Below, one piece after another: positions 4,978-62,462 of a stretch of DNA of 64,000 nt. Below the pieces are notes generated by a model. It saw only the letters and a list, made by a program, of their open reading frames with translations, did no database searches and was not told the DNA's origin. How positions within the stretch are numbered: the first letter of the stretch is position 1; every line of letters starts with the position of its first letter. The stretch is from a virus: positions 1 through 64,000 of IMG/VR virus record IMGVR_UViG_3300028025_003852; one strand, 5' to 3'. Made by a program: the position numbers and the translations under genes.

Positions 4978-8562
<3,585 letters not shown>

Positions 8563-13214: not shown

Positions 13215-13433
13215 TAATTATTATAACATATTGTAACAATTTGATAACAAAAAAATAAAAATCATTGATATATCAACACTGTTATATAATCGTTACAACA
13301 TTGTTATAGAAACGTTACCAAATACATGCTCGGGGTATGCTATGGTATATAAAGATAATAGATACTAAGAAAACTCTCTCTTAGAGATAGCTTCTCAATA
13401 AAAGAAAAACAATCCGAAGGATTAAGGATAAGT

Positions 13434-23722: not shown

Positions 23723-23813
23723 ACTCTACTTAGTATATACATTCATTATATTTGTATTACGATGAAGTAAAAAATACGCCAGATTACGAATAGGTAACAA
23801 TCACCCTGAAAAG

Positions 23814-26222: not shown

Positions 26223-26232
26223 CTGGTACCCT

Positions 26233-26268
26233 GCCTCCCTTCGGGGAGGTGGGGCCGGGCCTCCCAAA
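26233..26268 (+). terminator. TTCG hairpin plus GGGCCGG element
   Basis: CCTCCC-TTCG-GGGAGG, a stable tetraloop hairpin, followed by TGGGGCCGGGCCTCCC. Terminator at the end of the main plus-strand series. Confidence 0.65.
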
Positions 26269-26376
26269 CCACCAAAACACCTATATCCCAAAATACCTTT
26301 ACGATCCGATCAAAAAATACGCCTGAAAGTTATTACGAAGAATCAAAAAATACGCCTGAATAGAAAGGAGCATCAA

Positions 26377-26457
26377 ATGGAAATACCAATTGTAATATTT
26401 GTTATTACTATAGCAATTGCTATTACTGTTATTAATGTATGGTTCAAGAGACATTAG
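26377..26457 (+). CDS. Micro-membrane protein
   Basis: A 26-residue ORF that is one hydrophobic helix (IPIVIFVITIAIAITVINVW) with a basic end. GAAAGGAG site precedes it. Last plus-strand gene of the arm. Confidence 0.5.
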   Translation: MEIPIVIFVITIAIAITVINVWFKRH

Positions 26458-26968
26458 ATCTACCCCCGGTTTTTGGGGGTCCGCAGGGTATTACGAAGAA
26501 TCCAAAATTATCCCTGAAAAATACAAATTATCCCTATATATATAAACAAAATACATCATTTATCCTATATATACAAACACTTATTTGGTCATATTTGGAT
26601 AGCCAGATAGCCCAATTTGGATATTTGGGGGGTATGGGATACAGGGTTTGGGGTTTGGTGGATACTAGATGTAGTGGTTTGGCATTACGATGGCCCCATA
26701 TATAGGGCTATAATTACTCAAACAAATATCAAACCAATCAATTACAGTCAGATAATAAATCAAACAGTAAGATGTATGTGCATAAAATGTGGATAAAATG
26801 TGCATAAGTTGTTCACAATATGTGCATATCCCTGTGCATAACTTAGCATATTGGGACAAAAAAGGATTAAGAACGACCTATTTTTTACGCCTGAAAGTCT
26901 ATTGTATTATCACTAGGATTGGTTTTATATATAGGTATTATGATGGCTTTGTTTTATACCCCGAAAAA
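26458..26968. other. AT-rich region between convergent arms
   Basis: About 510 bases without a convincing gene. It holds an ACCCCC/GGGGGT hairpin (26460-26480), repeats of TTACGAAGAATC and of ACGCCTGAAAG, a short run of ATATAT sequence, and the iteron cluster listed separately. ORFs that can be opened here show no ribosome site or family features. Confidence 0.6.
26777..26841. repeat. DnaA-box-like iteron cluster, candidate replication origin
   Basis: TGTGCATAA (26777), TGTGGATAA (26788), TGTGCATAA (26799), TGTGCATAT (26821) and TGTGCATAA (26833), with an opposite TTGTTCACA at 26809. All but one fit the DnaA consensus TTATNCACA read on the other strand. Spacings are 11, 11, 22 and 12 bases, that is, one helical turn or two. 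Confidence 0.6.
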
Positions 26969-27133
26969 TTACTGAGTTACTGATCCATGTGCCCTAGGCT
27001 TATAAGCATTGATACTTCTATAACATTTAGCATGTACTGTCATATCTGTTCTATACTTAGGCTTACGATGCTTGCGTCTATAGGTTTTAGTCTTATCGTC
27101 TTTGTGTATTAGTTGATTGCAATACCAGCACAT
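26969..27133 (-). CDS. Small basic zinc-binding protein
   Basis: A 54-residue, very basic protein with CWYC at the N-terminus and HAKC later, a possible C2HC zinc site, flanked by RRKHRKPKYR. Starts one base after the stop of the upstream gene. Probably binds nucleic acid; family unknown. Confidence 0.6.
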   Translation of the reverse strand: MCWYCNQLIHKDDKTKTYRRKHRKPKYRTDMTVHAKCYRSINAYKPRAHGSVTQ

Positions 27134-60039: not shown

Positions 60040-60984
60040 TTAGTTTAGCATAGATATGATTGACTTGTCAAACGAGACTTCTAGTTTCGTCAGTTCTTCA
60101 TCAGCCATATCTCCAATATCCTTGTATTTGTTATCTAGTTGTATTGTGTTTACACGAGATCCAAGCTTATCAATAATCTTAGATTTCATATTCCCTCCTG
60201 CATCATCATTATCTGCAATAACAATTACGTTATTGAAGTATTTTTTGAGCAGGTCAATTTGGTAGTTTGATACGTTGGCTCCCAATGTTGCTACCGCTGG
60301 AAGCCCTACCTGGTCAAGGCGTATAACATCGAATGATGATTCGACAATATAAACCCTGTCTGCTGTCTTTACCCTGTGGAGGTTAAACAGAAGTTTTGAT
60401 TTAGGAAGTCCTGGAGTATTCTTAAACTCTTTTCCTTCTACAGATCTACCAACAAAGCCTACAGCCATGCCGTCTGGAGAATGGACAGGAATAGTCACCA
60501 TGTCTTGCTTTTCAGAATATCCAAGAGCAAACTTGTTTACGGAATGTTCTGTAATAAAACGTCCTGAATAGTATCTCATTGCACGAGGTGATTCGATTGC
60601 CTGTTGGTTTAATCTTTTAACCATTAGCTCATCGAACTGTTTGTAGTCTGGCTTATCGATCAGACGCTTTCCGACCTCAGCTTCAAGATTGCTTTCTGTT
60701 CTTTTAGAGTTAACAAAACGCACAGCTTCAAAGTATGTACGACCAGAAACATGCATCACAAGCTCTACTAGATTTGAGACGTGGTGACAAGAAAAACAAA
60801 AGAATATTCCAGACTGCTTGTCTACTTCTCCAGCAGGTGTTCTATTGTTTGCGTGGAATGGGCAATAAATGATATAGTCAGAGTCAACCTCGGACTCAAT
60901 GTCTACGCCTGTTCCTCGGAGTACTCTTGTAATTTGCTCTTCTGTAAAGGTATCGCTACCGTTCCGTCTATTCCCTCTATGCAT
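60040..60984 (-). CDS. dnaG: DnaG-type primase
   Basis: A 314-residue primase. Zinc-binding domain: YIIYCPFHANNRTPAG and GIFFCFSCHHVSNLVELVM. TOPRIM core: DRVYIVESSFDVIRL (Glu) and VIVIADNDDAGGNMKSKI (Asp pair). Lacks the C-terminal helicase-binding domain of bacterial DnaG. Its ATG lies 82 bases inside the upstream gene, and no usable start exists after the overlap. Confidence 0.92.
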   Translation of the reverse strand: MHRGNRRNGSDTFTEEQITRVLRGTGVDIESEVDSDYIIYCPFHANNRTPAGEVDKQSGIFFCFSCHHVSNLVELVMHVSGRTYFEAVRFVNSKRTESNLEAEVGKRLIDKPDYKQFDELMVKRLNQQAIESPRAMRYYSGRFITEHSVNKFALGYSEKQDMVTIPVHSPDGMAVGFVGRSVEGKEFKNTPGLPKSKLLFNLHRVKTADRVYIVESSFDVIRLDQVGLPAVATLGANVSNYQIDLLKKYFNNVIVIADNDDAGGNMKSKIIDKLGSRVNTIQLDNKYKDIGDMADEELTKLEVSFDKSIISMLN

Positions 60985-61241: not shown

Positions 61242-62462
61242 CTAGTTATCTTCAAAGTCTTTGTACTTATATGTACCCTTGTCAAAATCAGCCTGCACCA
61301 TGAATTCACCCATAAAACCATTACGATTCTTACGAAAAACACACTCTATAATGTCGGAGTTTGTACCACGACCAAGAGCCATAACCCAGTCAGCATCGTA
61401 TGCAATCTGTCGTGACCAAGCGGTCTGACCAAGTGTTGGAACAGTGTCTAGCTTAGTTACATCATCTGGTGTTGCTGATGAGATAGCAATAATGGGAACC
61501 TCTTCTGAAATAGCCATAAGCTTTAGTTCACGAGAAAGGTTTTTCATTCGAACAGTTTCGTTGTCTGACTTTTGGTTTGGCGACATAAGCTGCAAATAGT
61601 CTACAATAACAAAGTCTGGTTTGTACTGATCTATCTTACCACGCAATACTGAGGGCGTAATCTCTCCACCAGAATCATTTGAAATAATGTGAAACTCTGG
61701 CTTTCCTGCAAGATTTTTCGTGTGCCAAGATTTTAGCATATCAAGCTCTACCTGACCAGCAGAAAGCTTTCTGTGTGACCAAAGGCCTTCCCCCATAATT
61801 GTAAAGACACGATTACGAACCTCTGTCTCACTCATCTCAAGGCTAACAACCATTGGAGACTTGCCCTGCTTCCATGCCTGTACCGCAAAATAAAGCGATA
61901 GCCATGACTTTCCAATACCTGGATAAGCAAGGAATACTCCAAGCTGTCCTGGCGTAATTCCAGCAGGAAGGTAGTTGTCGAAACCCGGAAGACCAGTCTT
62001 GATTCCTGTGAACCCTAGAGCAGCCTGCTCTTGAACATTTGTATAGTATGCAATCGCATCATCAATATCTGTAACATCAATATCACGGATTGCAGAAGTG
62101 TTCTTCTTTAGTTCTGATGTCATTGTAATCAATGACTCAAGTACCTCTACACCCTTACCACCTTGAATATCTGTAGCTGCTGTGCGAACAATGTCCTTTA
62201 GACTATCATTAAGGTACTCTGCCTGTAGTTCTTCTAGGTGGTGCTTTGTTGCCCCTACCCCAGAAACTGGCTCAAAGTCACGGAACTTCTCAACAACTAG
62301 TGCTGTTGGTGGAACCGTGCCATTATGATCAAAGTAGTTACGAACAAACTGCCAGATATCATTATGAGTACGTAGCATGTTGTCTACGTTTGCCTGAAGC
62401 AAAACGTGGACCTGCTTATCCTCTAACACAGCAGAGATAAGCTTTGCCTCTGAATTACTCAT
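61242..62462 (-). CDS. dnaB: DnaB-like replicative helicase
   Basis: A 406-residue hexameric helicase with RecA-like core: GVFLAYPGIGKSWLSLYFAV (Walker A, G182-S186), GKSPMVVSLEMSETEVRNRV (motif H1a), PDFVIVDYLQLMSP (Walker B), and RKNRNGFMGEF. The N-terminal domain is short (about 110 residues). Works with the primase two genes downstream. Overlaps the next upstream gene by eight bases. Confidence 0.93.
   Translation of the reverse strand: MSNSEAKLISAVLEDKQVHVLLQANVDNMLRTHNDIWQFVRNYFDHNGTVPPTALVVEKFRDFEPVSGVGATKHHLEELQAEYLNDSLKDIVRTAATDIQGGKGVEVLESLITMTSELKKNTSAIRDIDVTDIDDAIAYYTNVQEQAALGFTGIKTGLPGFDNYLPAGITPGQLGVFLAYPGIGKSWLSLYFAVQAWKQGKSPMVVSLEMSETEVRNRVFTIMGEGLWSHRKLSAGQVELDMLKSWHTKNLAGKPEFHIISNDSGGEITPSVLRGKIDQYKPDFVIVDYLQLMSPNQKSDNETVRMKNLSRELKLMAISEEVPIIAISSATPDDVTKLDTVPTLGQTAWSRQIAYDADWVMALGRGTNSDIIECVFRKNRNGFMGEFMVQADFDKGTYKYKDFEDN

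Follow-up and report, generated by a model that had tools for sequence, protein, structure and literature searches.

A conserved DnaA-box cluster beside trio-like triplets, a candidate host-DnaA-dependent replication origin in a relative of the Stanwilliamsviridae phages

Introduction

DnaA-dependent iteron origins of plasmids and prophages, including RK2 and P1 oriR, carry DnaA boxes beside AT-rich DNA together with short direct repeats. In bacterial chromosomal origins, the basal unwinding system (BUS) is defined by tandem DnaA boxes no more than 3 bp apart, a spacer of at most 16 bp, and at least three NAN trios read 3'-5' (PMC8287927). E. coli DnaA binds double boxes with 2-3 bp gaps in vivo, and a single added base pair abolishes binding (PMC11317965), while the high-affinity box of S. 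coelicolor DnaA is TTGTCCACA (PMC4285127). Long terminal repeats are found in the Stanwilliamsviridae phages of Streptomyces (the Samisti12 group), and the repeat ends of the BE1 phages were defined from read starts (PMC5764925). For lytic actinophages that have long terminal repeats, neither the site nor the manner of replication initiation appears to be reported in the literature searched.

Here we examined a 64,000-nucleotide stretch of viral DNA (positions 1 to 64,000 of IMG/VR record IMGVR_UViG_3300028025_003852; hereafter the window), which is part of a 72,814-base record related to the Stanwilliamsviridae (Streptomyces phages Samisti12 and BillNye). An original prediction, made from the sequence alone, had placed a plasmid- or phage-type origin at a row of DnaA boxes between two convergent genes. 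We compared this locus with the systems above and with metagenomic and cultured relatives.

Results

The phage, its replication genes and its host

In addition to a replisome of its own, with DnaE-, DnaG- and DnaB-type proteins (Table 1), the phage encodes SSB, RecA/UvsX, ribonucleotide reductase and WhiB. Its DnaE and phrog_1221 proteins matched best to proteins of Streptomyces phages in the Stanwilliamsviridae; these matches and the WhiB gene point to an actinobacterial host. Searching genome contigs for the host returned one distant match plus CANGYR010000020.1, a contig in a Chitinophagaceae MAG. This contig carries the end of a phrog_1221 gene and the CAGTAAGAT-plus-double-box module described below, and may be a mis-binned phage contig. 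The DnaA_C domain (PF08299) was absent from the phage record and 13 relatives (14 records), which rules out a phage-encoded DnaA-like binder of this family; any protein binding the boxes would therefore be the DnaA of the host, and the locus does not have the adjoining dnaA of a chromosomal oriC. A PHROGs scan of the ten neighbouring proteins revealed no Rep initiator. Elsewhere in the window, a 1,194-aa frame at 4978-8562 is full of 9-base repeats and probably encodes a collagen-like Gly-X-Y structural protein.

Table 1. Coordinates of the features of the candidate origin region and of the replisome genes in the window
Feature	Position	Strand	Basis or remark
Long non-coding gap between convergent genes	26223..27133		Hexamer-based gene calling; a 0.5-2 kb gap lies in the same place in relatives
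ATTACGA motif, conserved block left of the module	26684..26690	+	1.06 bits per column in the alignment of relatives
Least stable DNA adjoining the boxes, candidate unwinding element	26709..26758		Duplex instability at the 99.3rd percentile within the window
Predicted terminal-repeat end	26712..26713		Between GGGCTATA and ATTACTCA; analogy with Streptomyces relatives
Two 11-bp direct repeats, TCAAACAAATA	26718..26738	+	TRF
DnaA-trio-like run, 3'-5' TAG AAT GAC AAA	26762..26773	+	CAGTAAGAT core at 26765-26773; core kept in 55 relatives selected on CAGTAA
3-nt spacer, trios to first box	26774..26776	+	Sequence; spacer of 5, 3 or 2 nt in relatives
DnaA box TTATGCACA	26777..26785	-	Perfect TTATNCACA match
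DnaA box TTATCCACA	26788..26796	-	Perfect TTATNCACA match; 2 bp from preceding box
DnaA box TTATGCACA	26799..26807	-	Perfect TTATNCACA match; 2 bp from preceding box
Near-box TTGTTCACA, reverse orientation	26809..26817	+	One mismatch
Near-box ATATGCACA	26821..26829	-	One mismatch
DnaA box TTATGCACA	26833..26841	-	Perfect TTATNCACA match
DnaE-type DNA polymerase III alpha (phage replisome)	56028..59300	-	
DnaG-type primase	60040..60984	-	
DnaB-type helicase	61242..62462	-	

A cluster of DnaA boxes in a convergent intergenic gap

The cluster contains four perfect TTATNCACA boxes within 65 bp of the minus strand, three of them of the form TTATGCACA rather than the strongest form, TTATCCACA. Sequence matching confirmed the predicted arrangement, in which three perfect boxes phased at 11 bp are followed after 22 bp by a box with one mismatch and after a further 12 bp by a fifth box, with a reverse near-copy in between (spacings of 11, 11, 22 and 12 bp); the fifth box was itself a perfect match. 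TRF independently reported an 11-bp array at 26776-26828. The whole window contained 11 perfect boxes compared with 3.8 expected, a number reached in 1 of 100 shuffles, and the seven outside the cluster were each single. Neither 20,000 dinucleotide-shuffled versions of the 911-bp gap nor 400 shuffled versions of the window contained more than two boxes in any 65 bp, and the cluster is thus far beyond chance.

The hexamer-based gene model also agreed with the prediction that the boxes lie in a gene-free gap, with a plus-strand gene on one side and a minus-strand gene on the other. Direct DNA similarity between this gap and named phages was not detected, and an Rfam search returned tRNAs only. 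A 30-bp repeat, TATTACGAAGAATCAAAAAATACGCCTGAA, recurs in or near the gap (26298-26360, 26489-26518, 23755-23786 and 26886-26898), and TTTACGA...CCAGG stretches resembling it are present near the genome end of Samisti12. The convergence of the two transcription arms had itself been taken as a sign of an origin, with a GC-skew plot as the proposed check, but a convergent gap is not in itself evidence for one. Cumulative GC skew reaches a local maximum close to 27 kb that follows gene direction, the maximum of Samisti12 at 123.8 kb likewise mirrors gene direction, and fourfold-site skew, mostly negative on the coding strands of both orientations, carried no replication signal. GC skew was therefore set aside as uninformative about an origin.

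The module is conserved in position, orientation and spacing

For comparison with relatives, we collected 80 viral loci that encode a phrog_1221 protein and dereplicated them to 67; we refer to these metagenomic relatives as freshwater phages, a shorthand that was not taken from sample records. Of the 67 loci, 55 carried a CAGTAA core in the non-coding gap, which lies 2.5-5 kb downstream of their phrog_1221 gene; most of the other 12 were incomplete. Around this core lies a module that is always in one orientation and on one strand, comprising from left to right the ATTACGA block, pyrimidine-rich repeats, weak duplex, CAGTAA(G/C)AT and, at 44 of the 55 loci, DnaA boxes. The distance from the C of CAGTAA to the first perfect box was 14 nt at 36 loci and 12 nt at five, including the window (41 of the 44 box-bearing loci). 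Information content was highest over the core and the boxes and then dropped abruptly to 0.3 bits. The 50 bp to the left of the boxes had a median instability at the 94th percentile across the 55 loci, so that a weak duplex (a candidate DUE) lies beside the putative initiator sites in the window and typically in its relatives.

Spacing between boxes on the same strand was similarly constrained. Among the 67 loci, 74 pairs were spaced at 12 bp, 15 at 11 bp, two at 10 bp and none at 13 bp; of the 91 pairs in this 10-13 bp range, 89 thus have gaps of 3 or 2 bp. These are the tandem gaps of the double boxes bound by E. coli DnaA in vivo, and the phased boxes of the window, with gaps of 2 bp, belong to the same class. 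The E. coli double boxes are mostly in promoters, whereas those of the module adjoin triplets and weak duplex.

Trio-like triplets accompany only the boxes of the gap

Since the loci had been selected on CAGTAA, the invariance of this core across the 55 loci is partly built in, and the triplet analysis was therefore repeated without that selection. At least four consecutive NAN triplets, in register and within 0-7 nt, flanked 36 of the 44 double boxes in the gap and none of the 40 double boxes elsewhere in the same genomes; composition-shuffled flanks had such runs in 12% of cases. The corresponding Fisher value of 3e-16 overstates independence because the loci are related. The window has four triplets at a spacer of 3 nt, and the module accordingly has the three or more NAN triplets, within 16 bp and on the correct side, of a BUS. 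The triplets were of the types AAT, GAC, AAA, TAT, TAA, TAG and TAC; the commonest trio, 3'-GAT-5', never occurred among them, and the module in this respect departs from the consensus form of the BUS. In comparison with the BUS of bacterial oriC, exemplified by DnaA-boxes #6/#7 and the DnaA-trios of B. subtilis, the module shares tandem boxes 2-3 bp apart, a short spacer and a NAN run on the AT-rich side, but it resides in a phage genome without dnaA, is devoid of 3'-GAT-5' triplets, and has lost its boxes in a fifth of relatives.

These box-less relatives, 11 of the 55, keep the CAGTAA core without any perfect box. They are dispersed across the tree, their 11 tips requiring 10 changes compared with a shuffled mean of 10.3, which suggests that the boxes are dispensable or replaceable. 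In seven of the 11, TATCAAAC occupies the position of the boxes, as though the site of one binding protein had been exchanged for that of another.

Box clusters and terminal-repeat ends in Streptomyces phages

Samisti12 has exact terminal repeats of 10,666 bp, a length in agreement with the read-start report (PMC5764925), and the repeat end falls within the homologous convergent gap. This end is separated by 29 bp from a cluster of TTATCCACA and TTGTGCACA sites (122951-123016); the corresponding distance is 50 bp in Jay2Jay and 29 bp in Mildred21. Ten further Samistivirus isolates have 2-4 TTATNCACA boxes in the same stretch, so that a box cluster occupies the corresponding gap in the 13 isolates of this genus examined, near the repeat end in those for which the end could be placed. 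In BillNye, three boxes lie at a distance of 5.4 kb from the repeat end, and the repeat end of Coruscant has no boxes. The repeat offset in the Jay2Jay record (NC_029098) is about 11,438 bp; the 10,778 given in the published table is identical to the Paradiddles figure (PMC5764925) and is possibly a table error. The Streptomyces phages carry mostly TTATCCACA, unlike the TTGTCCACA preferred by S. coelicolor DnaA.

In the Samisti12 group, the homologous non-coding gap thus contains a DnaA-box cluster that adjoins an experimentally mapped repeat end, and by analogy the site in the window probably adjoins the inner edge of a long terminal repeat. The Streptomyces relatives differ from the window in box orientation, in a 4-bp gap between boxes and in the lack of triplets, as judged by eye, and the repeat end of the window is a predicted one. 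For the other repeat end, ATACATGC at 13322 (compare GCATGTAT, which immediately precedes the end in Samisti-like phages) was a weak lead that was not conserved in the freshwater stretches compared.

This neighbourhood raises the main rival to an origin, namely that the element serves packaging or the terminus, with a terminase recognizing it by the repeat end and the boxes being accessory, recruiting DnaA or blocking transcription. The short distance of 29-50 bp between the repeat end and the nearest cluster box in Samisti12, Jay2Jay and Mildred21 would fit such a role, as would the (C/T)ATTACACA that follows the repeat end in these three phages and even in the box-less Coruscant, and the persistence of the CAGTAA core where boxes have been lost. 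The BillNye cluster, 5.4 kb away, shows that the boxes are not simply part of the terminus, an assignment we rejected; DnaA-type spacing and triplets would be unexpected in a terminase site, and in the freshwater phages the repeat end is only predicted. On balance we regard a packaging or terminus element as unlikely, while the strongest of the alternatives.

DnaA boxes outside the module

Perfect boxes were not confined to the gap, as we had considered: the relatives have double boxes in other intergenic regions, those without triplets, and each of their records contains about 5-18 perfect boxes. Across the 67 loci, TTATCCACA was the commonest intergenic 9-mer and box density was 24-fold higher in intergenic than in coding DNA. 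Outside the module, TTGACA was found upstream of the boxes in 20 of 130 clusters compared with 2.0 expected, mostly 26-35 bp away, so that phage promoters may be a further target of DnaA. Some boxes outside the module follow TTGACA, a hairpin-like GC-rich stretch and GCCCC, and the distance to the start codon beyond them is commonly 100-150 bp. Further recurrent intergenic motifs in the relatives, GGCGTGTCG, AAACTGCTC, TCAAACCTT, AAAATGTCAG and ACATTACGA, resemble a common repertoire of sites with a regulatory or structural role.

This distribution, with its tenfold excess of upstream TTGACA, would also be expected if the boxes were operators through which host DnaA controls phage transcription, the cluster being merely the largest of many; in some relatives the last cluster box even lies between promoter-like hexamers ahead of a plus-strand start codon. 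The double boxes outside the module are nevertheless without triplets, and the gap of the window is flanked by converging genes and hence has no annotated gene to regulate, which makes an operator role for the cluster improbable, somewhat more so than a role at the terminus. That the boxes are a decoy titrating host DnaA and slowing initiation of the host chromosome is very improbable: high-affinity double boxes do recur between the genes of relatives, but the boxes in each record are few relative to a host chromosome, and titration does not need a constant geometry with triplets.

Three boxes phased at 11 bp were found in at least 120 viral stretches, all intergenic by the gene model among the matches listed, and phased DnaA boxes therefore appear to be a common phage theme. 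None of the matches listed had CAGTAA within 30 nt upstream of the phased boxes. What stands out in the phage group of the window is the combination of triplets, fixed position and terminal-repeat neighbourhood.

Discussion

The best-supported reading of the element, on the pattern of its sequence, is a phage replication origin that depends on, and is opened by, host DnaA, and we favour it with modest confidence. It rests on the conserved position and orientation of the module, on the DnaA-type spacing of its boxes, and on trio-like triplets that occur only beside these boxes. Because the cluster is kept in the same place next to melting-type sequence, this is probably where the phage borrows the DnaA of its host. 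The points against an origin are the 11 of 55 relatives without boxes, the missing GAT triplets, the Streptomyces phages, whose boxes have no triplets beside them and are mostly not of the form preferred by S. coelicolor DnaA, the lack of a replication signal in the fourfold-site skew, and the double boxes elsewhere. The original prediction of a plasmid- or phage-type origin is thus retained as regards an origin bound by host DnaA and unsupported as regards the iteron type: in contrast to RK2 and P1 oriR, no Rep gene was identified among the ten neighbouring proteins, and the repeated units are the DnaA boxes themselves.

In the mechanism we propose for such an origin, host DnaA would bind the row of boxes 2-3 bp apart as a cooperative oligomer, which would extend leftward across the 3-nt spacer onto the trio-like triplets of the neighbouring weak duplex, separating the strands in the manner of the bacterial BUS. 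The DnaB, DnaG and DnaE of the phage would then be loaded. If the analogy with Samisti12-like phages holds, forks starting at the inner repeat edge would copy the terminal repeat first.

A broader and more tentative proposition, which we regard as rather improbable, is that a family of long-terminal-repeat phages with their own replisome copies the origin-opening code of bacteria (boxes plus trio-like triplets) and sites it at the inner repeat edge, which would tie duplication of the repeat to initiation; the boxes would have been swapped several times for TATCAAACC, which would mean that the initiator changed while the melting core stayed the same. Should the origin reading be true, the box-less relatives would constitute a natural experiment in the change of an initiator site. 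The module provides a precise candidate site and a testable mechanism, the use of host DnaA by a phage through a BUS-like code, and since cultured Streptomyces phages have DnaA-box clusters in the equivalent gap, the question of DnaA is testable in them. If true, BUS-type opening would extend beyond bacterial chromosomes.
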